Position numbers and translations under genes: made by a program
The notes under the pieces: model-generated
Told to the model about the DNA's origin: nothing
The model's input: the letters and a program-made list of their open reading frames with translations, nothing else
Database searches by the model: none
IMG/VR virus record: IMGVR_UViG_3300010885_029176
Coordinates: 1-20,074 of that record
Reading direction: 5' to 3' (one strand)
From: a virus
Length of the DNA stretch: 20,074 bases
Shown here: in pieces, positions 1,026-17,439 of the stretch
Layout: each line of letters opens with the position of its first letter
Numbering within the stretch: position 1 is the stretch's first letter

Positions 1026-4000
1026 TTACGGTGTTATAGTAACTGTAACAGTTCTTCCCGTTAATGTCGCCACCGCTCCAGGATTGGTTTGAGTTCCTTT
1101 TAAACTTACTAATTTAGAACTATCCCAAGTTGTTGAATAAGTCGCCAAATCACTCAATATATTATTAATATTAGTTGTACTTATTGTAGAATTTCCTCGT
1201 ATTTTTAACTGATACATTGTAGTTGGCCAAACACGACTAAAAGTATACCCAGTAATTGTGTTATTACCTTCTATTGCAATATTGAACGCCGCCGATGAAA
1301 AATCTGAAATACTACCATCAATAGTATTATTACCTATAATAGTTACATTAGTTAAATTTGGCGGTAAAAAAGACACGTTACCCGTTATAGTACCAAGACC
1401 TGTCAAATACATATCAGTTAATCCATTTGGTAAATCCGCCACATCACCACTAATAGTATTATCACCAGTTACATATAAATATGTTAATCCCATAGGTAAC
1501 CCTGAAGTGTCACCACTAACTGTATTATCACCACCAAGTATTAAATTTGTTATCCCTGTAGGTAATGACGATACGTTTCCACTTATTGTATTACCAGGAC
1601 CAAAATAACCGTCCATAGTATATATTTGACAATAAGTTAATCCTGTTGGTAATCCTGAAGTACTGCCACTTATCGTATTTTTACCACCAATTGCGAGTAT
1701 TGTGATTCCTGTGGGTAATCCTGTGGTATTACCACTAACGGTGTTATCACCTTGTAAATTTAAATAAGTTAAACCAGATGGTAGTCCTGTAGTATTACCG
1801 CTAATCGTATTATCATAAATTGAAACATATGTCAGTCCTGAAGGTAATCCTGATGTATTTCCACTTAGTACAGTGTTACCATTATTATTAAACATCTGCA
1901 AATTTAGAAGATTAGGTGGTAAGTCTGTTGTGTTTCCTGTTAGATTAGATTGACTAATAACTAAATAAGTCGGAGTTCTTGGTATTTGTGAAATCAAACC
2001 ATCTAATCTAACCTCATAGTTCAAATATGAATTATTCAGATTATCTAATTTGGTATATTCTGAAGTATCAATAACTACATTAATACCCGAAGAACCTGTC
2101 ACTGTTGTGGAAATAGCAAATCTTGTAATATCAGATAAATCAAGTGATTTTACTGTGATTAATCCATTATACAAACTACTATAAACATGATTAGGTGTAT
2201 GGTTTCCTGCCGCAAAAGTACTCACGTTACCATCACCCCAATCTACTAAGTATCCGTATGAAGTTGACTGAATTTCTGTGATTGTAATAGCACTAACATT
2301 TACTGCTGTCATCCTAAATGACTGTAAAGGTAAACTAGGTGTCGGAGTAATAGTAGGTGTCACTGTTATAGTTGGCGTAATAGTTACTGTTGGTGTTGGA
2401 GTATTTTCTGGAGTTATCGTAGGAGTTGGTGTAACTGTTGGTGTTGCTGACGGTGATGGTACCCCATAACAACAAATGTCATAATCAATTCTAATTGCAA
2501 CACTAACAGTATCCGCAGATAGTGTTCTAGCACAATCCGTATTTAAACTAATTGAATTTGTATTCGCATTTAGAACTATTGAACCAATACCAGGAACTCC
2601 ACTTAATAAAGCATTTAACGCATCAACATATTGTTGGTCTGTAGGATATACAGATAAAGATGTTGTAGCAAAAAAGTTACTAGTGAACGCCGAACTACCA
2701 ACATTTAATAACAAATTAAATTGAGCCAACGTTAATTTACAATTTATTTCACCAATCGTTAAGTCTTGATATCCTTGATTTAACATTTGTTGAAATCCTG
2801 TTTTTGTTCCTGTTCTTTCTGTAAAAATACTATCACAAATATTGAAAATCTGATATGATGTATTAGAAGTTCCACAAAGTATTTGAGTTGTTTTAATTAA
2901 ACTACAATTATTACTATCAGTAACTGTTACAGAATATGTTCCAGCGGTAAGTCCTGTAACATATATACCATCCTGCAAACCGACATTAGGTGACCAAGAT
3001 ATTGTAAATGGCGGTGTACCCTTAGTGATTACCGCAGTTATTGTCCCTTCATTACCCTTACCACAGCTTGTATCAATTAAACTAAATTGGACATCATTAC
3101 TACTTTTTATACTAACTGATTTTATTTGTTTGCAACCATTAACATCAGTAACTGAAACTGCGTATAATCCACTTGATAAATTATTAAACGTATATGCAGT
3201 AGAATTTAAGGTAATTGATTGTCCCGGTATTTCATAGGTGTATGTACCGTTAGCACTTGTCTCAACTCTAATAGAACCATTTAATAACCCACATGTTGTA
3301 TCAATATACGTTGTAGTAATTGTAAAAGCGTCTTCGTTAATAACGGTAATGTCGGTCTCATAACTACAAGTACTTGGGTTTGTTATTTTAATATGATACG
3401 TACCTGTTGGTAAGTTATTAAATTGAGCGTTAGAATTTATAGAAATAACTCTAGTATTGCCTGAAGTATCTGTTAATGTATATGTATAAGGTGTATTTCC
3501 CCCTTGAACAAATACATTAATAATTCCATTACTACTTCCACATACAGAAGGAACCGATGACGCAGCGACAAATGTAAACGCATTTGGACTTGATAATGTT
3601 ATTGTTCCTGATGTGGTACATAATCCCGCATCAGTAACCGTTACATTATATATTCCTGACGATAGTCCGGTAAATGTTGTATTATTTGAAAAGTCAATTT
3701 TTGTATCCCCATTTGATAAAACATAATAAAATGGTGCAGTTCCTCCACTCAAATAAACCGTGATTTGTCCGTCCGCTTGAAAGCAATTTGGAGAAACAGG
3801 TAATAAATTAGTTATACCCGGTGGTTCAACATCTATAACTGTTGCTTGTTTAGTGACAGAACATCCTCCAGAATCAAGTACTGTTACAGTATAAACACCC
3901 GCAGTTAAACCGCTAATAGATGAGGTTGTTTCATTATTACTCCATAAATAAGTATATGGTGAAACTCCTGTTTGACCTGTAATATATATTTTTCCAGAAG

Positions 4001-4556
4001 GGCCTGAACATCTTGAATTATTAACAACAAAAAACCCATAATCTAATTGTCCTGAATCCAAAACAACATTAGTAGATGAGCGTCCGCTACATCCTCCATT
4101 ATCAATCGCCTCCACATAATATGTATCTGCAGACAGTTGAACAAAAGGATAAAATCCAACAGAGGAAGTACCTGAAGTTACATATCCATTAGTATTACTA
4201 TATAAATAATAATCAACTATATTAACTGATGTTGTTGCTGTTGCGGTTAAAACCCCATTTGGTAATCCACAAGTTGAATTTATCACACTTGTCTCTAAAC
4301 AAATCCCTGAAGAAATGGTTAATAAAACAGGTTGTTCTTGTGGTGAAACAGAAGAGTCAGTAACTAATATTTGATAAGTACCTACCGATAAACCAGTTCT
4401 AGTTGATGATGTAAAAGAAACATCAGTTCCTAAATTAGGTATTTGCCAATCAATAATATATGGCGATTGTCCATCAATTGGTTCTATATATAAAGCACCT
4501 GTACCTATATTTAGGCAATCCCCTGTAACCGTTGTTATAATATAATTAATAGGCAT
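1026..4556 (-). CDS. Mosaic tail adhesin: SprB-like modules, Pro/Thr linker, PKD-like domain and LRR array
   Basis: An 1176-residue protein, the last and most modular gene of the tail run, starting at a TAATG overlap with the preceding gene. Residues 1-560 hold seven modules of about 75-85 residues. Each ends in a GxYxVxVTDxxGC-like motif (near residues 59, 143, 220, 301, 385, 463 and 539), and most begin with a Cys-Gly-x-x-Asn-Gly-like turn; this is the pattern of the SprB repeat family of Bacteroidota surface adhesins. Residues 561-697 match the C-terminus of the 983-aa neighbour. Residues 699-742 are a Pro/Thr linker. Residues 745-815 look PKD-like (VDWGDGNVS, 771-779). Residues 858-1129 are about twelve 22-residue leucine-rich repeats of type LPxGLTxLxLxGxNTISGN. 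There is no catalytic motif, signal peptide or membrane segment. I infer a fibre or receptor-binding protein whose shared domain anchors it to the baseplate. It could instead be a non-essential decoration protein. Confidence 0.72.
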   Translation of the reverse strand: MPINYIITTVTGDCLNIGTGALYIEPIDGQSPYIIDWQIPNLGTDVSFTSSTRTGLSVGTYQILVTDSSVSPQEQPVLLTISSGICLETSVINSTCGLPNGVLTATATTSVNIVDYYLYSNTNGYVTSGTSSVGFYPFVQLSADTYYVEAIDNGGCSGRSSTNVVLDSGQLDYGFFVVNNSRCSGPSGKIYITGQTGVSPYTYLWSNNETTSSISGLTAGVYTVTVLDSGGCSVTKQATVIDVEPPGITNLLPVSPNCFQADGQITVYLSGGTAPFYYVLSNGDTKIDFSNNTTFTGLSSGIYNVTVTDAGLCTTSGTITLSSPNAFTFVAASSVPSVCGSSNGIINVFVQGGNTPYTYTLTDTSGNTRVISINSNAQFNNLPTGTYHIKITNPSTCSYETDITVINEDAFTITTTYIDTTCGLLNGSIRVETSANGTYTYEIPGQSITLNSTAYTFNNLSSGLYAVSVTDVNGCKQIKSVSIKSSNDVQFSLIDTSCGKGNEGTITAVITKGTPPFTISWSPNVGLQDGIYVTGLTAGTYSVTVTDSNNCSLIKTTQILCGTSNTSYQIFNICDSIFTERTGTKTGFQQMLNQGYQDLTIGEINCKLTLAQFNLLLNVGSSAFTSNFFATTSLSVYPTDQQYVDALNALLSGVPGIGSIVLNANTNSISLNTDCARTLSADTVSVAIRIDYDICCYGVPSPSATPTVTPTPTITPENTPTPTVTITPTITVTPTITPTPSLPLQSFRMTAVNVSAITITEIQSTSYGYLVDWGDGNVSTFAAGNHTPNHVYSSLYNGLITVKSLDLSDITRFAISTTVTGSSGINVVIDTSEYTKLDNLNNSYLNYEVRLDGLISQIPRTPTYLVISQSNLTGNTTDLPPNLLNLQMFNNNGNTVLSGNTSGLPSGLTYVSIYDNTISGNTTGLPSGLTYLNLQGDNTVSGNTTGLPTGITILAIGGKNTISGSTSGLPTGLTYCQIYTMDGYFGPGNTISGNVSSLPTGITNLILGGDNTVSGDTSGLPMGLTYLYVTGDNTISGDVADLPNGLTDMYLTGLGTITGNVSFLPPNLTNVTIIGNNTIDGSISDFSSAAFNIAIEGNNTITGYTFSRVWPTTMYQLKIRGNSTISTTNINNILSDLATYSTTWDSSKLVSLKGTQTNPGAVATLTGRTVTVTITP
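1170..1985 (-). repeat. 22-residue leucine-rich repeat array (coding)
   Basis: About twelve consecutive units cover residues 858-1129 of the 1176-aa protein. Most are exactly 22 residues, for example LPTGITNLILGGDNTVSGDT (998-1017) followed by LPMGLTYLYVTGDNTISGD (1020-1038). One unit (969-997) is stretched to 29 residues by a Gly/Tyr/Phe-containing insertion (MDGYFGPG). The DNA is visibly repetitive, with recurring blocks such as ggtaatcctg. The spacing of Leu-Pro and the Asn-Thr-Ile core resembles 22-residue FNIP-type LRRs more than the classical 24-residue kind. Confidence 0.75.
2331..2462 (-). repeat. Pro/Thr-rich linker (coding low-complexity tract)
   Basis: Residues 699-742 of the 1176-aa protein consist almost only of Pro and Thr, with Ile, Val and Ser, in a TPT-x-TPT rhythm (for example TPTITVTPTITPTPS). 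It joins the SprB-like and shared-domain half to the PKD/LRR half and probably forms an extended stalk. The DNA is a degenerate tract of gtaatagt/ggtgt units. Confidence 0.85.
2877..4556 (-). repeat. Seven SprB-like modules (coding)
   Basis: Residues 1-560 of the 1176-aa protein. Approximate modules are 1-82, 83-168, 169-243, 244-322, 323-407, 408-485 and 486-560. Shared features are an early Cys, a CGxxNG-like turn in several copies, a GGxxPYxYxW/L strand (for example SPYTYLWSNNETTSSISGLT, 199-218), and the closing GxYxVxVTDxxGC. The copies are strongly diverged, so this is not a recent tandem duplication. Confidence 0.72.
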
Positions 4557-7507
4557 TAACTACAACTAATTGTAAAATTCAATCCAACGTTTAATTGGAT
4601 TTGTTTATTTGTAAATTTAGGTTCGCATCCTGAATTAGAAACATACAAAGTATTTCCACTAAGGAAATACGTTAAGTCAGCATCAGTTAAATTTGTCACA
4701 TAAGTTTGTACCGCACCGCTCCATTGAGAATTAGTCGGTGTTTGTAATGTTCCATATCCTGTAAAGAATTTTTGTTGTAATAAAACAGTACTATCCAATC
4801 TTAAATCAATATACCAATCAGTGACTAAAGAATTCAAATCACATGTTAATGAATTAGATGTGACATAATTTGTCACAGTTTGATTTAATATATCTTGGAA
4901 TGATTGTACTGTTGATGACCCTCCATTCCAAGGATAAATAGGACATTCAATAGTTTCATCAATACAATTATATAAAAATAAATTACCATTCAACGTACAA
5001 GGTATACACGGTACCGGTAATATTGCACATCCTCTTTGAATTCTATATACAAATTTTTGTCTATGAAATATAGAATTTTCATACTTAACTCCGGCTAACC
5101 ATATTGTGGTCGCTGGTATCATTTGTTCAACTAATCTAATCCAATAATCACCTAACCCATTAACATAATCCATCATTGAACGATAATTAAAATTATCATT
5201 CGGTATTCCGACAGTTTCTTGTGATTGTAAGTAATTCCAAAATATAGACTGTAATGTTAAATATCCACTTGTTTTACCATCAGAACTAAATTGTCTATCT
5301 CTAACATTTATCATGTTATTCCAAAATGTTTGAGCAAATTCAAAGAACGATTTTTTATTTGGTTGTGGATTAATGAATGTTGAATCAACCCCTCCTGGTT
5401 GTGGATAAGGGGAAGTTAAACCAGTACTAGGTATTGGGTAATCATACTTTCTTGACATATACCAAACATCATATGCCAACCCTTGAGCAGGATTTAAAAA
5501 TAAATCAACATTTTTAACATTTAATACAAATTTTTCATTATCAACAAAATAATAAGCATCATATTTAGAACCTCCATTACCTACTCTAAGTCCTGTGTCT
5601 GTCACAGGCCAACTTTTTTTATTATCGGGTATTCTTAAAAGTCTATAACCTGTATTCAAATATGGAAAATATCTATATCTATCCAAATATTTTTGTCCAT
5701 AAGTAAATTGTTCAAATTCAGTTTGAACATTAAAATTTTGTCCCGTAAATACACTATTAGTATAATTAATTTTTTGAGGACTTTGGTGGTCTTTAACTAG
5801 TTCAAACCATCCCGCCCCTTTCTGAAAGAAATAATCTTGAGTATCTTCAGGTGACTTCGGATAACCATAAGAATCCACAGGAAAATCCGCCAATGTCACA
5901 TCAACATCAGTTATCGTAGTTTGTGTTGTAAAGGCTGAATATACATTACCATAAATAGTAAATGTTGTAGTATCAAATACGGGCATCTCTTCAACATATG
6001 TACCACCAGATATTTGAGCGTACCTCATATTAAAATCCGCCATGTTAATTTTCTGACCTGCAATATATATATTTTCATTAAATTCTATTAAAGCCTCCGG
6101 TGCACCAATAAGTCTTAGTAAAAATTCTATAGACTTTCTTGTACCTTTTGACTTAAACAAATAAGCAGAATTTAAAATTAAATTTCTATAAAATTGATAA
6201 TTTAACTCTGTTGGTGTTGACGCTCTAGAATATCCCTCAAATTCAATTTTACTATTATTACCAAAAACTGAACCTAAGAAATTTTCATTAGTAATTGGGG
6301 AAACGTTTATTTTCCATCCAATTGTTTCTGCCAAATTTTTAAGTAATTGTGATGGTATATCATTTTTAACCGTATAATTTACAGAATTCATATAAGCCAA
6401 TCCATCTATAAACTTTTTAACCTCATCAAAACTTCTACCATAGATACTTAATATTTTTTGAACTCTTTGGTCTTCAGTATCAAATTCTTTAAACGATTCA
6501 GTAGTTAAAAATCTTGTTATTAAATTTGTTTTTGATTCATCAAATGCAACCGCAATCTCATTTAAAGAATTTAAATAATTATCAAATAATCTTGTCCTAA
6601 TATCTAAATTCCAAATCCCATCTATTGGCCAAGTCACATTAACAAAACTAGTAAATAAAACACCATCATCTGATTGTTTTGGTACTTGGAACGTTGCCGT
6701 GTATTTAGGGACAATCATTCTATTTAATAAAAACTTTTCAACCTCATCAAACGGTTCTATTAATGATTTATCCGCATAAAAAGTATTTGGTCTAATAACT
6801 AAAGTTTCGGTTGTTTCCATTTTTCCTGAAAATGGTTGACCAAAAACAATAATTTCTATAAAACCTGAATATAAACTACTGGATGGTGTAAAATGATAAA
6901 TAGGAAATTCTTTATCTCCTAAAAATAAAGAAAACTTATTATACTCAACAGTTAAATTTCTTAATGGAGATACCTCAAATTCTTTTAATGAAATATTTCT
7001 GGTTGCATTAACCGAATAATCAATTCCAAAAGGATTTGTCAATTTAGTCACATCAATTTTAAATGAAGTAACATCTTCAATATTGTCATAATCAATATCA
7101 ATCGCGGTATTGTCAGTAGTAAAATCAGAATTAAGATTATATACTTCTAATGCAGAAGGAAAATAATTTATAATTTTTTGAACTGATGTTGACATTCTTT
7201 TAGATAACGGACCATAAATATTAAATTTAGTTATCTCACTTAAATCAAAATTAGGATAAACTCTAAATTCTTTAGCAATAATTGCCTTAGATTCTAAAAC
7301 ATTAGAAACATTTAATGTGTCTAAAGTAATTGGTTCAGAAAAAGAACCAATATTAAACTCTCTATAAACTTTTTCTGTTATAGTTGTTGTGAATTGAAAA
7401 TTACCTTGCGTTAAACCACCTCCTTGGACTAATTGAAATCCAACCAAATCATCTGAAAAAGGTCTACCATTAGCACCGTCAGGATATTTAATAATCGTTT
7501 TACCCAT
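4556..7507 (-). CDS. Baseplate protein with a gpI/TIGR02242-like tail domain (possible gp7 counterpart)
   Basis: A 983-residue protein that starts and ends at TAATG overlaps. Its core resembles the tail-protein domain found in P2 gpI and in contractile injection systems (TIGR02242 type). The first half is ILSIYGRSFDEVKKFIDGLA (352-371), followed by the PSQLLKNLAETIGW stretch (385-398). The second half is YLFKSKGTRKSIEFLLRLIG (449-468), with the family's Lys-Gly-Thr-Arg turn. Downstream, LVEQMIPATTIWLAG (792-806) and the basic RQKFVYRIQRG (816-826) precede a Cys cluster (C827, C834, C837, C848, C855). Residues 837-983 are related to residues 561-697 of the following protein. In T4 and P2 baseplates gpI corresponds to part of gp7, which joins gp6 in the wedge. 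I therefore infer a wedge role linking to peripheral proteins. The N-terminal 340 residues are not recognised. Domain recognition is by eye, so the family assignment is moderate. Confidence 0.62.
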   Translation of the reverse strand: MGKTIIKYPDGANGRPFSDDLVGFQLVQGGGLTQGNFQFTTTITEKVYREFNIGSFSEPITLDTLNVSNVLESKAIIAKEFRVYPNFDLSEITKFNIYGPLSKRMSTSVQKIINYFPSALEVYNLNSDFTTDNTAIDIDYDNIEDVTSFKIDVTKLTNPFGIDYSVNATRNISLKEFEVSPLRNLTVEYNKFSLFLGDKEFPIYHFTPSSSLYSGFIEIIVFGQPFSGKMETTETLVIRPNTFYADKSLIEPFDEVEKFLLNRMIVPKYTATFQVPKQSDDGVLFTSFVNVTWPIDGIWNLDIRTRLFDNYLNSLNEIAVAFDESKTNLITRFLTTESFKEFDTEDQRVQKILSIYGRSFDEVKKFIDGLAYMNSVNYTVKNDIPSQLLKNLAETIGWKINVSPITNENFLGSVFGNNSKIEFEGYSRASTPTELNYQFYRNLILNSAYLFKSKGTRKSIEFLLRLIGAPEALIEFNENIYIAGQKINMADFNMRYAQISGGTYVEEMPVFDTTTFTIYGNVYSAFTTQTTITDVDVTLADFPVDSYGYPKSPEDTQDYFFQKGAGWFELVKDHQSPQKINYTNSVFTGQNFNVQTEFEQFTYGQKYLDRYRYFPYLNTGYRLLRIPDNKKSWPVTDTGLRVGNGGSKYDAYYFVDNEKFVLNVKNVDLFLNPAQGLAYDVWYMSRKYDYPIPSTGLTSPYPQPGGVDSTFINPQPNKKSFFEFAQTFWNNMINVRDRQFSSDGKTSGYLTLQSIFWNYLQSQETVGIPNDNFNYRSMMDYVNGLGDYWIRLVEQMIPATTIWLAGVKYENSIFHRQKFVYRIQRGCAILPVPCIPCTLNGNLFLYNCIDETIECPIYPWNGGSSTVQSFQDILNQTVTNYVTSNSLTCDLNSLVTDWYIDLRLDSTVLLQQKFFTGYGTLQTPTNSQWSGAVQTYVTNLTDADLTYFLSGNTLYVSNSGCEPKFTNKQIQLNVGLNFTISCS

Positions 7508-8415
7508 TATTGAGTTATGTTTGTAAAGTTTTTACTATAATCTATATTATTTCCTCTATCTTGTCTAACCTCATATAACAAAGAATTAGATTGGTCTCTA
7601 ATTTCATACAAGTTATATTGTTTGTAGATATTATTGTTTGAGTCATAAATAGTATATATACCATCTTGCATTGATTTAGTTTGATTACCATACAAAGCCA
7701 ACGCTAATGTTGATATATCGTGTTCAACAATTTCAATATCTATCGTAATTGGATTAAAAAAAGTATTAGTTATTATTATTTTTTGTGCAGGTTGTCCTAT
7801 AAATGGGGTCGCGTTTGGTTTGTTTGTCGGAGATGATGATGGTGTTAATGTACAAAATATTAAATTTGTAACGGCATCAACATATCTATATCTAATCGCC
7901 TTTTGAGATGTATTTGTTAAATTTTGTAAAACAGGTTCACAAAAAAAGTTAGAAGTTACTATTCTAAAAAAGTTAGGTATTTTAGTACCGTCACTATTTA
8001 AGTATTCAACCCTAAATCCAACAAGTCCTTGTGATACAAATTTATTTCTATATTGTGTCGGTACATTATTTAAATCAATTACAATACCTTTAACGTTAGG
8101 TAGCGCCGATAATACACCACAATCAGTAATTTCCGTTCTTATTTGAGCCGGCTTAACATATAAAGTGTAAATACCAATTTTATTAAATTCATTTGCCGGT
8201 AATCTTAAATTATAAAGACCCCCTAATATTTCAATATTGGCATTACCGCCAGTATTATTATTATTATAATATGGCCTCAATATATTTAACGTATCTAACT
8301 TTTTTAATATAAAATTATCTGTAACATCCCTAGAAGGAGTATAATTTAATATTATTTCAACATCTTCAGGTGATACGTCAGAAGGTCTTATTGTTCCGTA
8401 GGTTCCTATTGCCAT
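7507..8415 (-). CDS. Putative tail/baseplate structural protein with a short Pro/Ser/Thr linker
   Basis: A 302-residue protein I do not recognise. It starts at the ATG at 8413-8415 after a 38-base gap and ends in a TAATG overlap with the 983-aa gene. The N-terminus (GTIRPSDVSPEDVEIILNY, 7-25) is acidic, followed by an Asn-rich stretch (51-55) and beta-rich sequence without a signal peptide or membrane segment. A linker of about 17 residues (TLTPSSSPTNKPNATPF, 189-205) sits directly after C188 and recalls the much longer Pro/Thr tract of the 1176-aa protein. It splits the protein into an N-terminal part of about 188 residues and a C-terminal part of about 97. The last 50 residues (DGIYTIYDSNNNIYKQYNLY, 251-270, and on) are polar and aromatic, which suits a subunit contact. 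A structural role is inferred only from position and composition. Confidence 0.6.
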   Translation of the reverse strand: MAIGTYGTIRPSDVSPEDVEIILNYTPSRDVTDNFILKKLDTLNILRPYYNNNNTGGNANIEILGGLYNLRLPANEFNKIGIYTLYVKPAQIRTEITDCGVLSALPNVKGIVIDLNNVPTQYRNKFVSQGLVGFRVEYLNSDGTKIPNFFRIVTSNFFCEPVLQNLTNTSQKAIRYRYVDAVTNLIFCTLTPSSSPTNKPNATPFIGQPAQKIIITNTFFNPITIDIEIVEHDISTLALALYGNQTKSMQDGIYTIYDSNNNIYKQYNLYEIRDQSNSLLYEVRQDRGNNIDYSKNFTNITQ

Positions 8416-8429
8416 TTTATTCTTTTATT

Positions 8430-8441
8430 TAATAAATAGTT
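8430..8441 (-). promoter_or_regulatory. AACTATTTATTA motif upstream of the 302-aa gene
   Basis: On the minus strand this is AACTATTTATTA, ending 14 bases before the ATG at 8415. The identical 12-mer lies 12 bases before the start of the 1760-aa gene (17452-17463). These are the two largest intergenic gaps within the tail run. It may be a phage promoter element or an AT-rich translation enhancer; sequence alone does not decide. Confidence 0.3.
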
Positions 8442-8453
8442 TATTACTCTTTT

Positions 8454-9623
8454 TTAAAAATTACTTTGGTTAACAAAATTAAAAAATCCATATCCATAAT
8501 TTTCCAAATCACCAATATTATCAATCTCACCTAATCTTTCAACTCTTTCCAATGCACTATTCTTACCTCTTTCCACAAAAACATCTGATTGTACTTCAGG
8601 GTCATTAACTATATTCATAAGAGATTCATTTTTCGTTATTGCAGATTGAACCATCCAATCAGATGTTAATCCAGAACTATCAAAAACATATACCGTCGTT
8701 TTATCAGGAAAATCCAAATACTGAACACCCTCTATAGTATATCCTGTATAACTTGAACTCATTGTTGTTATGACTCCAAATTGTTGTCCATTTTTTATTG
8801 TTGGAACATATAAAGGATATTTTGTTACCCCATATTGGGATAATTCATTTATTCTTGATGTTGTATATCCACTGATTGAAAATGGAACGGAAACATAATT
8901 ATTTGATGTTTGTGCCGAAATATGATTATCCGAGTCACCTGAGAATATAAAATCATACGATATTGATGTCGCAGACCAAGACCCTATATTCGGAGTAAAG
9001 TATGCAGAACCATTAGGGTTTTGAATTGTCGTTCCTGTAAATGGAACCACTACCGTTTTCTTTACAGTATTTCTTCCCCAAGGTGTATTCTGTATTAATG
9101 TAATTAAATAACTACCATTATTTATGTAATCATGATAAATAAAATTTGGTGATGTTGTTGTAATTGTTTGTATCGGTGAGGAGTCACCCCAATCAACTGA
9201 ATATGTGGATAGTTGTAAAAAGGTTCTCAACTGTGTTTCTGACGTATTATAAAAATAATATCTTTTAGGTAATGATGTTGTTGCTGAAAAGACAAAGTTT
9301 TTAACTACATCCGCCTGCATAATCGCCCCATCAAAAACAGAATAGTATCCCATATCCACAGCTGTCTCTCTAAACAGTATTGGGATTGTTAATCCTGTCA
9401 ATAAAGAATCACCATTAGTACCTCCACTTAATATATCAGTCATAGACGAATAAACGTAGGTTAATCCCGTAACATAAACCGTGTCACTAGATATTGATGA
9501 TATGTAACAACAAGTTCCTGTTACACCCGTTATTACATACGTATATGCGGTATATGGTTCAGGAAAAATGTCATTTAATACATTTTCATGAGATATTTTT
9601 ATATAGTAATAATCTTCGTTCAT
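8454..9623 (-). CDS. Tail/baseplate protein with a PKD-like domain
   Basis: A 389-residue protein whose ATG overlaps the stop of the preceding gene (TAATG). After an N-terminal region rich in Thr/Ser/Tyr (1-115), residues 120-193 look like a PKD-type Ig fold. They contain YSVDWGDSSP (141-150), then FIYHDYINNGSYLITL (161-176), which is the usual WGDG...HxYxxxGxYxVxL arrangement. A hinge and beta-rich section follow. The C-terminal segment (DPEVQSDVFVERGKNSALER, 341-360, then LGEIDNIGDLENYGYGFF) is hydrophilic and helix-prone and recalls a conserved tail seen in structural proteins of large marine phages. PKD folds in phage tails usually serve protein-protein or carbohydrate contact. I infer a baseplate-peripheral or fibre-connecting protein; no enzymatic motif is seen. 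Confidence 0.6.
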   Translation of the reverse strand: MNEDYYYIKISHENVLNDIFPEPYTAYTYVITGVTGTCCYISSISSDTVYVTGLTYVYSSMTDILSGGTNGDSLLTGLTIPILFRETAVDMGYYSVFDGAIMQADVVKNFVFSATTSLPKRYYFYNTSETQLRTFLQLSTYSVDWGDSSPIQTITTTSPNFIYHDYINNGSYLITLIQNTPWGRNTVKKTVVVPFTGTTIQNPNGSAYFTPNIGSWSATSISYDFIFSGDSDNHISAQTSNNYVSVPFSISGYTTSRINELSQYGVTKYPLYVPTIKNGQQFGVITTMSSSYTGYTIEGVQYLDFPDKTTVYVFDSSGLTSDWMVQSAITKNESLMNIVNDPEVQSDVFVERGKNSALERVERLGEIDNIGDLENYGYGFFNFVNQSNF

Positions 9624-10429
9624 TACGGATTAATATATTCATACCATTTTATTGGGTTAGAGCTATCTCCAATTAAGACATCATATCCCGTGTTTATATC
9701 ATAAACCTTATATGTATAATTACTATAATCTAAAATTACTTTATAATAAAAGTATTTTTCTTGGGGAAAATTAAATTTATTAATACCTGTTAATGTTGAT
9801 TGCGGTCTATTCATCATTTTAATAAAAATCCCTGTCTTCGCATCAAAAAACTTTGCGGTCATATAAAAAGTATTAATATTTAAAAATGATGTATTTTTTA
9901 ACCAGTAAATAAAAAACCCTTCTTTATCACCAACAAAATCCAATTTCATTACAGGTGTTTTAATATCATTCACAGTATATCCGACTGTCGTTGCTGATGT
10001 AACTCCTTGTTGTGTTGGTAATATTAAGGTAACATAGTTGGTTTGTTTAGTTAAATCAGTAGTATCATATAAATCTAATTTAAAAAATGACTTTTTAAAA
10101 GAATTACTATAGTAATAAATTTCCGTAGGAGTAAATCCTTGTATAGGATATGATGTTAACCAAATTGTATTTGCGCTGGTAGCACCTGATGGAGCAAAAT
10201 AAAATTCATAATTAATATCTGTAGTCAATGAATTTACATTCTGAGAATGTTCAAATCTTGCAACTTCAAAATCTTTATCTTGATTGATAACACTTTTAAT
10301 TGTTTGTTCTTCATATTCAACCAAAGAGTCACTTCTATCAAGCAAATCCCAATTCATTTCAATTGGTATATTGATTTCTTTATCTGTATTTGTTGTAGAT
10401 AATAATATTTTATATTTATTCACAATCAT
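9623..10429 (-). CDS. Putative baseplate structural protein, N-terminal paralogue of the 582-aa protein
   Basis: A 268-residue protein that begins 14 bases inside the end of the 582-aa gene and ends in a TAATG overlap. It is not recognised as a known family. Its N-terminus shares a spaced pattern with the gene before it: NTD (14-16), IP (21-22), DRSD (31-34), then TTDINYEFYF (70-79) with SGAT (82-85). The remainder is rich in Tyr, Phe, Asn and Lys, predicted beta-rich by eye, with no membrane segment, signal peptide or catalytic motif. The C-terminal stretch KYFYYKVILDYSNYTYKVYD (around 225-245) looks like beta hairpins. The position between baseplate genes and the tight overlap make a structural role the simplest reading. 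It could be an accessory subunit derived from the 582-aa gene. Confidence 0.6.
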   Translation of the reverse strand: MIVNKYKILLSTTNTDKEINIPIEMNWDLLDRSDSLVEYEEQTIKSVINQDKDFEVARFEHSQNVNSLTTDINYEFYFAPSGATSANTIWLTSYPIQGFTPTEIYYYSNSFKKSFFKLDLYDTTDLTKQTNYVTLILPTQQGVTSATTVGYTVNDIKTPVMKLDFVGDKEGFFIYWLKNTSFLNINTFYMTAKFFDAKTGIFIKMMNRPQSTLTGINKFNFPQEKYFYYKVILDYSNYTYKVYDINTGYDVLIGDSSNPIKWYEYINP

Positions 10430-12164
10430 CAGTAATCGGGTCTGCTATTGTAGATATATTTTGACCAACATTTCCTTCAGGAATTAGTCTAAATATAATC
10501 TTGGTTGATGGATAATGAGTTCCATTTAAAAAAGGATAATTAACCCCTTTTCCTGACTCGTCAATAAATCCGTAAGTATACATGTCTCTCCAAATAAAAC
10601 TATTTTTGTAATTTGAGTAATACGAATAATATGGTATATTATCAACTTCTTTTAATGAACCCTCCTCTAAATAATCAGAATAAACCCTTAATTGTATTAA
10701 ATTATGCGGTTTATAATAATATCCGTTTGGATTTGTTGTTGCCGATTGAATAATAAATAAATTATCATTAAATGATATCTTATGATACAACTGAGAAATG
10801 ATTCTTTCTTTTTGTTCAAATTGATTAAACTCACAATAATCCCCATTTATTGTATCACCACTTTTTAAATTTTGATTGTAATAAAAGGTAAACCCTCCTG
10901 GTTTAATATATGACGCTGTTGGTATTGTAGTTAAATTAACACTAGAATTAGTGTAATCCCAGTATGATGATACTGATGGACCCAAATTGTATTGATAACC
11001 TTCTCTAATTGAAACATTATTCGCAATTGGTTTATTCATCCACCCAAAATAACCATTATTTATAATAGTAATAAACAACTCCGATAATGGTCTATTCAAA
11101 TTATCTCTATATTCTGATATATCAATATCACTTGAGAATGACAATAGATACGATTGAGACCCTTCTTTTTGTGTTATTCTAGAAACTTTATCGGGCGTTA
11201 ATGTACCAAATTCATATTTTCTTTTAACATTAAAAATATTTTGTTCAAATCCACATTTTGTTAGGATTGAATCACTCACATTCGTTATTATTTTATGTTT
11301 TCTAACATAATATTTAGACATTGTTTCTGCAGAATTATTAATATCAATAATTCTTTTAAATGTCCCTTGAGCCGAATTAAAAAACGTATTCCCTGTAAAT
11401 CCATTATTATATAAGTTAAAAATATATTCGTCTGAATTATACCCATAATTACCTAACGAATATACTTGAAAAACTTTACTCCCATTATATCCAGTCCAAC
11501 CAAAGTTAAACTCTATTTGAACAAACTCACCAACACTCAAATTATGTTCAACAGGACAAACAAAAGATATCAAATTTCTACCTTCGTAATTAAATGGATT
11601 AACAACATAAAAAGGAATTCCAGTACCACATATCCACGTTAGAGTTGTTGACGAGTTTAAATTATATTGTAATACTTTATTGGATTCATTCTCATACGCA
11701 TAACTCACATATTGAGTCCAATTATATGTTGACGCACTTTTATTAATAAAACTAATATGTGGTGAAGTTGTGCCTGAATTTATAGTATAACCAGAAACAT
11801 TATTATCATTTCTTATAAAGTCAAATTCATAATATTGGGGATATCCAAACCAATTATTAGTATTGAATGAAGATTCACTATTAACATAATACAGATTATT
11901 CCTAAATGGAGCATATCCAAAAGCCCCCGTTGTTCCACTATAAGCATTATAAAATAATAAGTCCATATTAGTTGTTAATCTGAAAATATTAGACGCTTGT
12001 CTTTCATTGTCAAATATTTGACTCAAATCAACAATGTCACTTCTATCAAATTCATCAATCTCTTTTTGATTATTGACTAAAGGTATATCTACAGTTAAGT
12101 CAGTATTTATTGCTGACTTATATCTTTTAGAACCTAATACTATCGTTGTGTTAATATCACTCAT
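10416..12164 (-). CDS. Putative baseplate structural protein, 582 aa
   Basis: A 582-residue protein whose ATG (12162-12164) lies 8 bases inside the end of the giant gene. No known family is certain. The N-terminus carries the pattern shared with its neighbour: NTD (20-22), IP (27-28), DRSD (40-43), and TTNMDLLFYNAYSGTTGA (64-81). At 202-217 the sequence VCPVEHNLSVGEFVQI resembles the HxLSVGDxVxI turn repeated in many phage baseplate and tail proteins. It is Tyr/Asn-rich throughout, with no membrane or secretion signal. In T4 the genes after gp6 and gp7 are gp8 and gp9; the position could match gp8, but T4 gp8 is only about 334 residues and I see no gp8 motif, so I do not use that name. A structural role is supported by position and composition. 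Confidence 0.62.
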   Translation of the reverse strand: MSDINTTIVLGSKRYKSAINTDLTVDIPLVNNQKEIDEFDRSDIVDLSQIFDNERQASNIFRLTTNMDLLFYNAYSGTTGAFGYAPFRNNLYYVNSESSFNTNNWFGYPQYYEFDFIRNDNNVSGYTINSGTTSPHISFINKSASTYNWTQYVSYAYENESNKVLQYNLNSSTTLTWICGTGIPFYVVNPFNYEGRNLISFVCPVEHNLSVGEFVQIEFNFGWTGYNGSKVFQVYSLGNYGYNSDEYIFNLYNNGFTGNTFFNSAQGTFKRIIDINNSAETMSKYYVRKHKIITNVSDSILTKCGFEQNIFNVKRKYEFGTLTPDKVSRITQKEGSQSYLLSFSSDIDISEYRDNLNRPLSELFITIINNGYFGWMNKPIANNVSIREGYQYNLGPSVSSYWDYTNSSVNLTTIPTASYIKPGGFTFYYNQNLKSGDTINGDYCEFNQFEQKERIISQLYHKISFNDNLFIIQSATTNPNGYYYKPHNLIQLRVYSDYLEEGSLKEVDNIPYYSYYSNYKNSFIWRDMYTYGFIDESGKGVNYPFLNGTHYPSTKIIFRLIPEGNVGQNISTIADPITDDCE

Positions 12165-15100
12165 TTAATGTGGTTTCACCAATATATTTAGTGTAAAATT
12201 TATTTATAGCTGTTTCACCTTTCTTTAATCCAAAATAAAAATACCATGGAGCACCTGCTAAAGCGGGATTTGGATTTATTGTCGCACCTGTTAAATAAAT
12301 AGGTGATGCTTCAATTGTTGAATTAACCCAGCTTGATGGTGTTGTTCCTGTTGCAATAAAACTAACGTCATTTGTATTAGCCGTTGCCCCCACATTTAAA
12401 AAATTATCAGGACTAACATAATTAATTATTGTATAAACATTACCTACAATTAATGGTGTACCAACAGTTAGTGTAATAGGGGCTGATTGAGCAAAAAGAT
12501 ATCCTCTTGAATTATATTCGTTTGGTAATAATGAACCGGCTCTAGGATAATCACTAGTTAATCTATCTAACGATTGATACTTTTGAGCGTAAAATCCATT
12601 AACAGGTGGTGTTGTCACCCAATCATTAGTTTGTTTTCCAAAAAGTGTATATCCTCCGGTTTGAACTTTCCATTTATAATTTGGAACTATTTGTGATTTA
12701 TTAGGTATATAATCATAAACAAAAGAATTTGTATTTGTGTTATATCTTATTATTCTCATTGGGGATATAAAATCCCTAACTTGCATATCTTCAGTTGTTG
12801 ATTCGAAAAAAATACCCATCATTATATTATTAGCACCGAATCCCGCCGCGATTAATGCAGGATTAGTTCCCGTACTATCATAATAATCGGAATCAAAAGG
12901 TATCACACCTATTTGACTATTAATTGCTGAAGATTGAGCAAAATCGGCATCAACTCTATATCCTTTAGAACCACCACGACTAAAAAGTTTTTTAATCATA
13001 TCAGTACTCAATAATGAACGCCAAAAATTAGTATCTATCACTCTAATAATTGAAAAAAAGTTTATCATATCAGATAAATCAGTATATGATGTTTGAGATA
13101 TTTTTTTCATATTATACCCATAATAATTAGGACTCAAAATTATTTCTTTTAAGAATTCATCTCTAGGCCCTAAATTCATTATTGTTGTTGGAGTTTTTAT
13201 ATCCGAAATATTAGAGCCTCTATCCGGGTCACCGCTAGACGGAGCACCAACAAATCTATAAGAACTTAAAAATTTTTCAGCCGGAGATGAACGATAATAA
13301 AAATTATTTGTTTCATATTGTAACATAACAGTTTCAAAAGGAAACTTACGTTTATAAACTTGATTTAATTTATTATAATACGTATCAACCTTAAAAGGAA
13401 ACGCATATAAATTACCATTAACCCAATTATTAACAAAAACATTGGATAAAACACCTTGACACAGGGCATAGAAAAATCTAAATCTTAAAACATATTCAGA
13501 CCATCTTGTAATATCATTATCCGATTTCGGGTTAAATAATCCTTTTAAGGGTTCCCTAACAAATACATAACATCCATTTTCAACCGCATCGGTATTTGTA
13601 CAATTACTACTGACGCCAAAATTTATACCATTTCCTGAATAGCAATTAAACTGAACCATTCCCGCACAATCAAAAGTATTCAATACCGTTCCATAAAATG
13701 CGTTGTTCCCCGATAAAAAATCACCCGCATTATACTGAGGAGAACTAATTCCTCCACCAACCGTCAAAACACCACTATCGGTAAAGATATACATACTTTG
13801 TTTGGGGTTTTGATTCATCATTGCAACATTATTATAATTAGTATACGCAGTACTACCTGTTGAAAATAATAACAACCCATCCGATGATGGTAATCTATCA
13901 GACCTCATAACAATATTATTTTTATCCGACATGTTTGTCGTATATCCAGTTGGATATATAAAACTAAAATAAAGTTCTTCTGGTATAGTTTGATTTATTG
14001 GATAACTACCATAACAACCATCGCTCACACCTGCAATTCCCGGTTTTGTCATATACATAAAAGTACCTCCAACTAAAGAATCTTGTGTTGAATATTTTTG
14101 AGGGCTATTAGTACTCGAAAACAAAAAATTATTTGGATTAGAAACCACATCACTAGAACCATTATTATTTGTTGATGGAAACGCTTTTCCACTAATACTT
14201 GTATTTCCAGCATTTGTAGGGTCAATCACATAATTTAACGTTGTGGTATCTAAAGCCGAGTAATATCTTGTTAAATTTGTTGTATATCCTGAATATTGAT
14301 TACTTGGTGTGAAAAAATATGATGGATTCCAAAGTTTTTGCCCATTATTAACCGTTAAATTATTATTCGCTAATCTATGAATATAACATAGTTCATTACC
14401 AATCGAACCACCGATGGTTGGGTCAATATTTCTAATCGGTATATTTAATCTAAGTGGAGCATTAATTTGAACACCATTTATATTACTAAACCCTAAAAGT
14501 TTTCCCAGTCCTACTTTTGTTGGATATTGCGGAGAATATGGGTCAACCCCTCTTTGAGTGATATAAATTACCGAATTATTATCTATATAATCTATGTTTT
14601 TTACCGGATGCGGGCAAGTAAATAATTTTTCAGGATTAGTTGGGAAATAACTAAGACAAAAATACGTTTGATACCATGTTCTTTTTATAATAGTTGTTGT
14701 ACTTTCAATTATATCCGCTAAAGTATTAGGTATTGGACTAGAAGCATGTAAATTTCTAAACTGAGTAATTGTCATTCCAGTAACCACTTGGAAATATTCA
14801 ATATCACTAGGATATTGATACGTTTTTTCGTTAGTACTTGCACTTGCGGTTAGAGCATATGTTACGGGAAGCTCGTTACCAACTCTACTATTTGTTTTAC
14901 CATAAATTATAGTTACCGAAGTTTTTCCAGTGTCTGTTGTCCCAGTAATTGATTTAGTACCAAAACTATTTAGAGTACCCCCTGTTATATTAGGGTCCTT
15001 GGAATTTTTTGGACCCACAAAACTAAACATGGACCCGGTACTTAAATCACCATACGTACCCGCCTGCCCAATAAACACAACAACATTATCTAAATGTTGT

Positions 15101-17439
15101 TTATTACTATTTGTTGGTATATTTGGTTCTATTTGTACAGATATTTGATTAGTCCCGTTATAATAATTCGCCTTTGTATTAAACTGATTTAATCTCTCCC
15201 CAAATGGCATATCCGCAGTATATAATGCTGAATAATAATCATTCGCAGAAATTTCAAATGTAGTATATAACTGCACTCCATAGTTTGAGTTATATTTTTT
15301 TAGATTACCGGATAATAATTGAAGAACTAATATATAATCATAATCTTTATTATAACATCCGTTACCTACAAAAAAATTAGGGTCTTTGACTAATTTTGGA
15401 AAATCAGTATCAAATTTAACTTCTAAGGCATCTGAGTATACTCCTAAATTAGCAAAATTGACCAATAAACCACTATTACTACCTGCGTTTGCGGTTGAAG
15501 ATTGTGCCGACGATAACGTGCTACCCCCATTATCATCACCACTACAATCACAAACATCACAATCAGGATATGTAATCATCGGTAATTTTAGTGGTGGAAA
15601 ATCATAATCTATTAATCTTGCAAAAACAATTATAAGGGCGATTGCAATTCCTAACCATAAAAGTAGCATTACTGAATAGTATATTACACCCGCAACCCAA
15701 ACTGTCGCACCAAAACCTATTGATGGTGTTGCCGCCGCAATTATACCTAATGTCGATTGAACTATATTATATCCCGCCCATAATTCTAAAAAAATAAAGA
15801 AAAATACTTTTAACCAACTTTTCCAAAGATAAGCTATTAAACTATATAAAATTATTAAAGGTAATCCAATAATACCCAAAATAATCAATAAAAAATTAAA
15901 AACTCTCCATATTAAACTAGTATGAAAAACCCCATCATTTACGGGATACCTATTAGCAACATCTTCGCAGGTATCATCGTCAATTCTTTTAATACCAATA
16001 AATTTTTCTTTATTATTTGCGATTTTATAATTATCAATAAATGAAGATACTGTATAAACCTTATTGTACTCAAATTCATAAAAATAATCTTCACAATTTA
16101 TTATATCTTGAATGTCAGGATTAGTAATACTCACACTACCATTAGTATATGCTGACCAATCTAAACTAAACGCATACGATTTCTGAAAATCTAACCAATC
16201 AGGGTCAGTTTGGTAATTCGGATTAACAAATTGAATAATCGTTGGGTCAAATCCTCCATTCCATCCTCGTTCCTTAACATTAGGTACTAAATAATATCCT
16301 CTTTTATAATCTTCGGACACACTCGTACTTTGTTGCCATTTAATCTTGAATCTATATTTAGCCTTTGTTGGAACTCCCACTGATGGGTCATTAGATAAAA
16401 CCTGTTGTCCGAATTCATTTGTATACACATAATCCTGATTCATTGGTAAATCAAATAACCAAGCACCCGCAGAATCTATTAACTTACCACCATTTGGTAA
16501 ATCAGCCCTTTCTATAATAGGTAACCCATTAGAATCTCTATAAATTGATTGTGTTAATCCAATAATTTCACCAGGACCTGTAATTAACTTACACAAATCA
16601 CCCGTCGCTTTTTGTGCAATACCGTTTGATTTAACCGCAGATTTTTCATTTGAACTCATTAGAGAACCCATAAAAATTGATGTTGGTAATATATTAATAT
16701 TGGCCTCGTTTGTTAAATCAAAATCACTTCTTGTTATCCCAATTTGACAAACATCTTTTTCACCCCAAAATGGAACAATTTCAATTGTTTTATTAATCAC
16801 AATAATTTGTGGTAATTGATTGAAATTAGATGATGATTTAAATTTTACACCATCAAACTGTTCTTCAGTTGCAACACCCATCCTTATTAAATCTTGAGGA
16901 GTCAACGAAAATTCACCAATGTCCGATAAATCAACATTCATCACAATTGTTTGAGTTCCAACAGGAACACCAAAAATTAAAAAGTCACCACTATCGTTGG
17001 TTGTAACAGTATACTTATAATACTTGTCATAAAGTTCTACAACGGTTTGATTTACTAAAGCATCTAATCTTGTTGGAAAAGTACCTGTCGGTACGTGATT
17101 AGTATATGATGGAACATATGGTAATAAATTATATCTATAACCATCTTCATTAGTTTGTTCTAAATTCTTATAAGGATATATGGAAGATATTACAGGATTA
17201 TCTTCATCTTCGGGTTTTATCGGAATAAAAATTGAAAGTTTGGTATTTGGAATACCGTATCCGTTATTCGCAAAAACTCTTCCGGCAATAACCCCATAAT
17301 CAGAACACATCCTAGTATAAACATCAGATTGTCTTATTTTTAAAGATAGAACTTCCAATTGCTCAAAATCTTGTTCTACTTTAATAACAATATTTTTGTC
17401 ATCCCCCGGCGTTGTTCTTATTCTATATGATTGACCCAT
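12157..17439 (-). CDS. Giant baseplate-associated protein with Ig-like N-terminus and internal membrane cluster
   Basis: A 1760-residue protein, the largest in the window, starting at ATG 17437-17439. An AAAGG lies six bases upstream, one of the few clear ribosome-binding sites here. Residues 46-172 look like a carboxypeptidase-regulatory/Ig-like fold: GVIAGRVFANNGYGIPNTKL (49-68) and later TTNDSGDFLIFGVPVGTQTI (146-165). Residues 505-610 contain about three strongly hydrophobic segments, unusual for a tail protein. A CDVCDC cluster (627-632) and a Gly/Ser/Ala-rich hinge follow. Beta-rich sequence fills the rest. Residues 1664-1710 hold a YTIxNY...DNFLNVGA...VSFIATGTTP module of a kind common in phage structural proteins, and the end carries PWYFYFGLKKGETAINKF (1731-1748). 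The place just after gp6 corresponds to gp7 in T4 order (about 1032 residues), but no gp7 motif is evident. I infer a large wedge, spike or membrane-interacting protein. Confidence 0.65.
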   Translation of the reverse strand: MGQSYRIRTTPGDDKNIVIKVEQDFEQLEVLSLKIRQSDVYTRMCSDYGVIAGRVFANNGYGIPNTKLSIFIPIKPEDEDNPVISSIYPYKNLEQTNEDGYRYNLLPYVPSYTNHVPTGTFPTRLDALVNQTVVELYDKYYKYTVTTNDSGDFLIFGVPVGTQTIVMNVDLSDIGEFSLTPQDLIRMGVATEEQFDGVKFKSSSNFNQLPQIIVINKTIEIVPFWGEKDVCQIGITRSDFDLTNEANINILPTSIFMGSLMSSNEKSAVKSNGIAQKATGDLCKLITGPGEIIGLTQSIYRDSNGLPIIERADLPNGGKLIDSAGAWLFDLPMNQDYVYTNEFGQQVLSNDPSVGVPTKAKYRFKIKWQQSTSVSEDYKRGYYLVPNVKERGWNGGFDPTIIQFVNPNYQTDPDWLDFQKSYAFSLDWSAYTNGSVSITNPDIQDIINCEDYFYEFEYNKVYTVSSFIDNYKIANNKEKFIGIKRIDDDTCEDVANRYPVNDGVFHTSLIWRVFNFLLIILGIIGLPLIILYSLIAYLWKSWLKVFFFIFLELWAGYNIVQSTLGIIAAATPSIGFGATVWVAGVIYYSVMLLLWLGIAIALIIVFARLIDYDFPPLKLPMITYPDCDVCDCSGDDNGGSTLSSAQSSTANAGSNSGLLVNFANLGVYSDALEVKFDTDFPKLVKDPNFFVGNGCYNKDYDYILVLQLLSGNLKKYNSNYGVQLYTTFEISANDYYSALYTADMPFGERLNQFNTKANYYNGTNQISVQIEPNIPTNSNKQHLDNVVVFIGQAGTYGDLSTGSMFSFVGPKNSKDPNITGGTLNSFGTKSITGTTDTGKTSVTIIYGKTNSRVGNELPVTYALTASASTNEKTYQYPSDIEYFQVVTGMTITQFRNLHASSPIPNTLADIIESTTTIIKRTWYQTYFCLSYFPTNPEKLFTCPHPVKNIDYIDNNSVIYITQRGVDPYSPQYPTKVGLGKLLGFSNINGVQINAPLRLNIPIRNIDPTIGGSIGNELCYIHRLANNNLTVNNGQKLWNPSYFFTPSNQYSGYTTNLTRYYSALDTTTLNYVIDPTNAGNTSISGKAFPSTNNNGSSDVVSNPNNFLFSSTNSPQKYSTQDSLVGGTFMYMTKPGIAGVSDGCYGSYPINQTIPEELYFSFIYPTGYTTNMSDKNNIVMRSDRLPSSDGLLLFSTGSTAYTNYNNVAMMNQNPKQSMYIFTDSGVLTVGGGISSPQYNAGDFLSGNNAFYGTVLNTFDCAGMVQFNCYSGNGINFGVSSNCTNTDAVENGCYVFVREPLKGLFNPKSDNDITRWSEYVLRFRFFYALCQGVLSNVFVNNWVNGNLYAFPFKVDTYYNKLNQVYKRKFPFETVMLQYETNNFYYRSSPAEKFLSSYRFVGAPSSGDPDRGSNISDIKTPTTIMNLGPRDEFLKEIILSPNYYGYNMKKISQTSYTDLSDMINFFSIIRVIDTNFWRSLLSTDMIKKLFSRGGSKGYRVDADFAQSSAINSQIGVIPFDSDYYDSTGTNPALIAAGFGANNIMMGIFFESTTEDMQVRDFISPMRIIRYNTNTNSFVYDYIPNKSQIVPNYKWKVQTGGYTLFGKQTNDWVTTPPVNGFYAQKYQSLDRLTSDYPRAGSLLPNEYNSRGYLFAQSAPITLTVGTPLIVGNVYTIINYVSPDNFLNVGATANTNDVSFIATGTTPSSWVNSTIEASPIYLTGATINPNPALAGAPWYFYFGLKKGETAINKFYTKYIGETTLNE
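15610..15927 (-). other. Multi-pass hydrophobic segment within the 1760-aa protein
   Basis: It encodes residues 505-610. The visible hydrophobic blocks are about 509-539 (VFNFLLIILGIIGLPLII core), about 544-570 (VFFFIFLELWAGYNIVQS core) and about 580-607 (VIYYSVMLLLWLGIAIALII core). They are separated by short loops with Lys/Trp (KSWLK) and Pro/Ser (ATPSIGFGAT). Length and composition fit three transmembrane helices or one long hairpin plus a helix. Confidence 0.75.

Follow-up and report, generated by a model that had tools for sequence, protein, structure and literature searches.

Seven SprB-family Ig-like modules beside phage baseplate genes: a probable constant arm for exchangeable recognition tips

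The arm-and-tip protein

The window analysed here, a stretch of 20,074 nucleotides of viral DNA (positions 1 to 20,074 of IMG/VR record IMGVR_UViG_3300010885_029176), encodes on its minus strand a protein of 1176 amino acids, referred to below as the arm-and-tip protein. An earlier note on this DNA had drawn attention to positions 2877-4556, which correspond to residues 1-560 of the open reading frame (ORF) at 1026-4556, as a run of modules resembling the repeats of SprB, the mobile surface adhesin of gliding Bacteroidota, and had considered either capture of host modules for binding the same glycans or mimicry engaging the gliding machinery. It had not mentioned that another ~615 residues follow the module array, made up of the cap, a Thr/Pro linker and the leucine-rich repeat (LRR) tip, and this part is the key to the role of the protein. 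We consider it probable that a conserved arm of immunoglobulin (Ig)-like modules positions exchangeable receptor-binding tips in this protein, as a component of the adsorption apparatus that is most likely attached to the baseplate. The arm gene and its parts are as follows.

1026-4556, minus strand: arm-and-tip protein, 1176 amino acids, with seven SprB-type Ig modules, cap, linker and tip (ORF; PF13573 match; orthologue of 8001-11552 in locus L006 and of more than 60 others)
4308-4556, minus strand: module M1 (residues 1-83), starting TGDC and without closing Cys (hidden Markov model (HMM) boundaries, AlphaFold2)
4056-4307, minus strand: module M2 (residues 84-167; HMM boundaries, AlphaFold2)
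3834-4055, minus strand: module M3 (residues 168-241), of the seven the nearest to bacterial SprB modules (HMM boundaries, AlphaFold2, best matches, tree)
3585-3833, minus strand: module M4 (residues 242-324), the best PF13573 stretch (Pfam, HMM boundaries)
3333-3584, minus strand: module M5 (residues 325-408; HMM boundaries, AlphaFold2)
3099-3332, minus strand: module M6 (residues 409-486; HMM boundaries, AlphaFold2)
2868-3098, minus strand: module M7 (residues 487-563; HMM boundaries, AlphaFold2)
2457-2867, minus strand: cap domain (residues 564-700), alpha/beta, kept in all relatives (alignment, AlphaFold2, hhalign)
2331-2456, minus strand: Thr/Pro-rich linker (residues 701-742), left border of the putative swapped cassette (sequence; synonymous divergence (dS) 0.15 and non-synonymous divergence (dN) 0 against L006; identity profile)
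2118-2327, minus strand: WGDG/PKD-like beta domain of the tip (residues 744-813; motif VDWGDGN; AlphaFold2 predicted local distance difference test (pLDDT) score ~83-91)
1137-1979, minus strand: LRRs of FNIP type (residues ~860-1140), the variable tip (sub-threshold FNIP Pfam match; phmmer matches to LRR chains; Foldseek; direct repeats D1)

The protein matches the Pfam SprB family, PF13573, with an E-value of 1.5e-17 and 63.3 bits against a curated gathering cut-off of 28 bits, and four stretches pass on their own. The protein thus passes the refuting test set in the earlier note, which had asked for a SprB hit above threshold. Since all 66 aligned relatives with complete arrays (66/66) match the same profile, the similarity to SprB is not due to chance. 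PF13573 is a general repeat of Bacteroidota surface proteins and no marker of gliding. A family profile built from the modules detected exactly seven of them end to end (residues ~1-82, 82-167, 168-242, 244-324, 325-408, 407-486 and 487-562), and an AlphaFold2 model calculated with the 66 relatives displayed seven consecutive Ig-like beta-sandwich domains followed by an alpha/beta domain (mean pLDDT 84, predicted template modelling (pTM) score 0.40), in agreement with the seven diverged modules of the earlier note. Given the pTM score, the overall pose of the model is unreliable and the single domains are reliable. The closing motif GxYxVxVTDxxGC that had been described for the modules was strict only in M3 (GVYTVTVLDSGGC), M4 (GIYNVTVTDAGLC), M6 (GLYAVSVTDVNGC) and M7 (GTYSVTVTDSNNC); in M2 and M5 it is degenerate, and the closing Cys is missing from M1. 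Foldseek searches with the module array returned Ig-type chains, and with the tip model all top matches were LRR proteins, including the solved FNIP protein 7zal. Contig IMGVR_UViG_3300009684_000046 (49.9 kb) carries a 100% identical copy of the arm gene, and a contig of 192 kb has one with 85% identity.

Number and ancestry of the modules

The gene that precedes the arm gene served as the query for relatives.

4556-7507, minus strand: baseplate-associated protein of 983 amino acids, its stop overlapping the start of the arm gene (ORF; in relatives the next gene is always the array)
4559-4843, minus strand: cap-like C-terminal domain of the 983-amino-acid protein (hhalign)

In order to avoid circularity, relatives were sought by this upstream baseplate protein alone rather than by the array; more than 500 were found and the best 80 were kept. 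Among these, the array was present in all 59 complete next-gene proteins (44 of 44 in the non-redundant set), the open-ended next-gene proteins being those cut by contig ends. Seven modules were detected in 42 of the 44, and six in the remaining 2, in which an evident diverged module 1 had been missed. The same architecture, for which the earlier note had suggested looking, is thus widespread among related phages.

A module tree was calculated from the modules of seven divergent phages and 45 Bacteroidota proteins. Each of the seven module positions formed its own clade (bootstrap 95-99; for M7 a Shimodaira-Hasegawa-like approximate likelihood ratio (SH-aLRT) of 79) with the minimum possible number of changes, and a best-match comparison by BLAST on a subset of all modules paired 370 of the 371 phage modules with the module at the corresponding position of a different phage, with bacterial modules matching bacterial ones. 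In bacterial arrays between 1 and 29 modules were detected in a reading frame, many of these arrays being cut at the locus ends, and the nearest cellular relatives of the modules were from Bacteroidota in 80 of the 80 best loci, although one title says just uncultured bacterium. The position-specific clades and the same-position best matches imply that the common phage ancestor already had the seven modules in this order, and the array is thus old, colinear and fixed. As the nearest cellular relatives are all Bacteroidota, an ancient origin of the array from that pool is likely. A capture of host modules, if meant as a recent event, was rejected on the same clades and best-match counts, and variation in repeat number as a form of phase variation was also rejected, the number being fixed. 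Smaller genes downstream of the arm gene also carry single or paired SprB modules, namely 11839-13266 of locus L010 (44 bits) and 14378-16933 and 16975-18291 of L006 (sub-threshold).

The exchangeable tip

Extensions in the 64 complete proteins were C-terminal in 31, N-terminal in 8, at both ends in 2 and absent in 27, and the Thr/Pro linker was found in 24 of the 64. In every related pair of tip-bearing proteins the array was more conserved than the tip (array/tip, %: 96/70, 95/88, 76/43, 95/47 with an N-terminal tip, 98/92, 85/68, 78/64 and 83/50). Between the window and its nearest relative, L006, the array is 96% identical and the modules display a dS of 0.17 with a dN/dS of 0.11, against a dS of 0.8-1.2 in the tip. 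Most of the array is 93-99% identical in DNA; at residues ~740-1140 the identity is down to 52-81%, and at the gene end and just beyond it is again 92-100%. Such a drop in the tip with recovery at the gene end is the mark that the exchange of a cassette leaves. The identity and number of the modules, their position-specific ancestry, a conserved arm against diverging tips and the cassette-like divergence of the tip are all read from comparison of sequences.

A separate adjoining downstream gene in locus L008 (11068-13332) contains a Thr/Pro linker, a WGDG domain and DUF285 repeats (E 1e-98); these repeats are a second type employed as a tip and are unrelated to the first. As a source of the variation among tips, a diversity-generating retroelement was considered and rejected, as no reverse transcriptase was found in 10 contigs, which may be fragments.

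The cap domain and the baseplate genes

The profile of the cap aligned with the C-terminal domain of the preceding 983-amino-acid protein (hhalign probability 97.2, E 3e-11), whereas the controls against the Ig module gave E-values of 0.26 and 0.57; the cap is thus a paralogue of that domain. The 983-amino-acid protein itself has a distant hhalign match to gp109 of Flavobacterium phage immuto (probability 78, E 1.8e-5), with nothing convincing in Pfam or PHROGs and nothing in a PDB profile search. Further upstream are two wedge genes.

17535-19376, minus strand: baseplate wedge gp6/J-like protein (phrog_219, E 8e-19; 27% identical to the immuto wedge protein over its full length)
19383-19844, minus strand: baseplate wedge gp25-like protein (phrog_261, E 5.6e-17)

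The minus strand of the window thus holds the wedge genes, several proteins without database relatives, the 983- and 1176-amino-acid proteins and a gene matching phrog_4417, and the place of the arm gene at the end of a phage baseplate operon, as the earlier note had it, agrees with the gp25-like and gp6/J-like genes upstream. The cap paralogy and the baseplate context, as well as the absence of sorting signals reported next, come from sequence analysis.

Sorting signals

SprB is coupled to the gliding track through its C-terminal 368 amino acids and SprF (PMC9143113; PMC12635249). In the phage protein no signal peptide was apparent, the first 60 residues having no hydrophobic core (maximum 19-residue hydropathy 1.15), and no sorting domain of the type IX secretion system (T9SS) was found at the C-terminus, with no match to PF13585 or TIGR04131 and just a sub-threshold internal match to TIGR04183 at residues 343-394. 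A score of 31 bits for 'Por_Secre_tail' in the trimmed protein was rejected as an artefact of summed weak Ig-like matches, since the match is internal and none of its stretches reaches the cut-off alone. PF11751 (PorP/SprF) was matched in 0 of 10 phage contigs, which may be fragments, and the control genomes were likewise without a match. With neither a signal peptide nor a T9SS sorting domain, the phage protein does not have the part by which SprB is coupled to gliding; it belongs to the SprB repeat family and not to the functional type of the adhesin.

T9SS sorting domains were found on other, secreted-looking proteins of the clade's contigs, at 3280-4797 of L234 (256-kb contig), 4614-6503 and 8574-13133 of L235 (295-kb) and 4421-6532 of L236 (192-kb, the window's nearest relative). 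The type B domains (TIGR04131) scored 38-51 bits against a cut-off of 35, and the type A domain (TIGR04183) 39.5 bits against a cut-off of 23; the type A protein adjoins three small signal-peptide-like ORFs, two of which have weak outer-membrane-barrel matches. Type A cargo carried by a phage has a precedent in 'Cryophage' (PMC7468147), and phage-borne type B cargo may be new. Such proteins may alter the surface of the infected cell.

Phage clade and host

A contractile-tail sheath gene was present in 9 of 10 relatives' contigs tested, and a T4-type capsid gene (Gp23) in 5 of the 10. The Shine-Dalgarno signal was absent (23 of 615, the same as in shuffled sequence). The host is probably a member of the Bacteroidota, given the lack of Shine-Dalgarno signals, the wedge relative in a Flavobacterium phage and the T9SS-sorted proteins in relatives. 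No cultured relative was found in INPHARED by the upstream baseplate gene, and a prophage or lysogenic host was rejected, as no relative of the baseplate gene was confirmed in a pattern-limited scan of 84,980 bacterial and archaeal genomes.

A 642-kb 'huge phage' record, LR756502.1, also encodes a SprB-repeat protein (L224 7885-12897, 1670 amino acids). It was rejected as a relative because its protein is of the secreted type, with a signal-peptide-like N-terminus and ~14 modules; either the huge-phage record holds a secreted adhesin resembling those of hosts, or the sequence is a contaminant.

Comparison with known systems

The array has its closest precedent in crAss-like phages, with their array of eight BACON modules, and is the SprB-family counterpart of that array in another phage clade. 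The crAss arrays have eight modules in cluster 1, each position forming its own clade distinct from bacterial domains, and a poorly conserved C-terminus (PMC6949934). In both systems a protein of the tail region contains Ig-fold modules in tandem, belonging to a family of Bacteroidota surface proteins, with a stable number and position-specific clades. The present proteins differ in that the family is PF13573 rather than PF13004, the modules number seven, the cap is common with a baseplate protein, the phages are large and of the T4-type contractile-tailed kind, tips occur at either end and a cassette swap is visible. The 66 members together matched 17 families, and BACON (PF13004) was not one of these.

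SprB of Flavobacterium johnsoniae is a highly repetitive protein of 669 kDa, exported by the T9SS with a type B C-terminal domain and bound to SprF (PMC9143113); the phage protein shares its PF13573 repeat family but has 1176 amino acids, seven diverged modules, no signal peptide and no such C-terminal domain. The best viral match is A0A6J5LD72 (UniProt/BFVD) from an uncultured Caudovirales phage, a tipless member of the same family of 714 amino acids that is already labelled 'SprB repeat'; it is 36% identical across the whole of array and cap (E 2e-61), and its length indicates that linker and tip are absent. The literature searched yielded no description of it. Among solved structures, the array was best matched by fragments of the grappling-hook protein GhpA of Aureispira (PDB 9flp, 9fly and 9flw; Foldseek E 2.3e-18, 15-20% identity), a bacterial predation adhesin. 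GhpA likewise has tandem Ig-like modules of a Bacteroidota adhesin, but is much longer, and the two resemble each other as chains of modules without sharing an overall pose (root-mean-square deviation 50-70).

Immutovirus immuto has the gp25- and gp6-like wedge genes of a T4-type baseplate in common with the window, whereas its tail region has no SprB modules or cap and annotated tail fibre and spike genes follow instead. The phages of the present clade also resemble the moraphages, which are large aquatic phages of the T4 type, have gp25, gp6, sheath and major capsid protein and are predicted to infect Bacteroidota (PMC12619734). Lysine-tRNA ligase, encoded by 24 moraphages, was found in 0 of 8 contigs of the present clade, which may be incomplete, and the terms 'Ig-like' and 'adhesin' are absent from the moraphage paper (PMC12619734). 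In the literature searched, no paper describing SprB repeats in phage tails was found.

Proposed role and alternatives

Two traits of phage adsorption proteins, location among tail genes and a conserved shaft whose tip varies and recombines, are present here. In the mechanism that we propose, the seven SprB-family Ig-like modules and the cap would form a constant elongated arm of ~700 amino acids, with the cap as the likely docking or pairing point near the baseplate, and this arm would carry a replaceable recognition tip, here the PKD-like domain and the LRRs beyond the flexible Thr/Pro linker. In other members the tip would be N-terminal or would probably be supplied by separate downstream genes. 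Host choice would reside in the tip, with reach and stiffness set by the SprB modules. We infer the presence of the protein in the virion, the docking of the cap, the binding of a receptor by the LRR tip and the spacer role of the modules.

Several observations weigh against this proposal. Presence in the virion is, as said, something we infer, and since tips occur at both ends, the end of attachment is uncertain; the array could itself bind a ligand, as its conservation is compatible with function. The AlphaFold2 model of the tip is of low to moderate confidence (pLDDT 63), M6-M7 are locally more diverged (80-90% DNA identity), so that the swap lacks a perfectly sharp border, and the raised dS of the tip fits recombination, yet the alignment of fast-evolving repeats could contribute. 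The Hoc-like matches of some relatives make a capsid or neck location possible: Hoc-like PHROG families matched up to 23 of the 66 relatives at E<=1e-3, though not the protein of the window, and a PDB profile search weakly picked phage Ig decoration and neck-whisker proteins. The protein could on this basis be a Hoc- or whisker-like decoration of the head or neck, encoded after baseplate genes by happenstance, but such matches reflect the shared Ig fold, whereas the invariable place behind the baseplate gene and the paralogy of the cap with the product of that gene argue for the baseplate and leave this alternative quite improbable.

Other readings give the modules a different function. They may be the ligand-binding part, sticking reversibly to host-derived or extracellular glycans of the kind bound by SprB-type adhesins, with the tip as a second, specific binder. 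Every module is of the SprB family, the nearest cellular modules are from Bacteroidota surface proteins, and phage proteins with Ig-like and BACON/PKD domains are able to mediate adherence to epithelia (PMC13370021). We regard this reading as unlikely, because the array, often tipless, is constant across phages presumably differing in host, while the tips diverge and swap; the binding of the same glycans put forward in the earlier note meets the same difficulty. It is also doubtful that the fixed seven-module array itself binds, with low affinity and throughout the clade, some conserved structure of the Bacteroidota surface, for example the layer that houses SprB-type adhesins. If so, adsorption would proceed in two steps, a first contact common to the clade and a decision on strain by the swapped tips, and one domain family would serve both host adhesion and the virus of that host. 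Least credible is a mimicry or hijack of gliding, in which the arm plugs into the SprB/SprF track or rides moving adhesins over the cell. The repeat family is that of SprB, and the T9SS-sorted proteins encoded by relatives indicate that the hosts probably have a T9SS and that some may glide, but coupling to the track requires the C-terminal region of SprB bound to SprF (PMC9143113; PMC12635249), and the phage protein has neither such a domain, PF13585 being unmatched and the TIGR04183 match sub-threshold and internal, nor a signal peptide. The gliding and glycan-mimicry idea is therefore unsupported, and the repeats have the appearance of a structural part that is old and fixed, not of a recent mimicry of the gliding machinery of the host; a SprB label in a phage protein alone implies neither gliding nor mimicry.

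The arm that we favour would provide a probable host-recognition module for a large clade of uncultivated contractile-tailed phages (more than 500 database relatives of the baseplate gene), with the border between the constant part and the interchangeable tip located. SprB follows BACON as a second, independent domain family that Bacteroidota phages carry next to their tail genes as an Ig array of fixed number, and with a second family in this pattern the choice between a passive spacer and a shared first-contact binder becomes testable.

Other genes of the window

Scans of the window with Rfam and for tRNA genes gave no result. The baseplate operon also encodes a protein of 1760 amino acids (12157-17439, minus strand) with at least two strongly hydrophobic segments at residues ~513-607 (19-residue hydropathy 2.8), which is unusual for a virion protein. 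At 2-781 on the minus strand lies a glycosyltransferase-looking gene with an HDAD motif (11797-12774 in L006), which follows the arm gene in many relatives; it matches phrog_4417, a PHROG without function, and has no Pfam match. Relatives of this gene were found in 74 phage records at below 60% identity (34-38% among those listed) and at least 80% query cover, and in Enterococcus phage phiFL1A the relative lies directly after the major tail protein. The product may glycosylate tail proteins, for example at Thr/Pro linkers.

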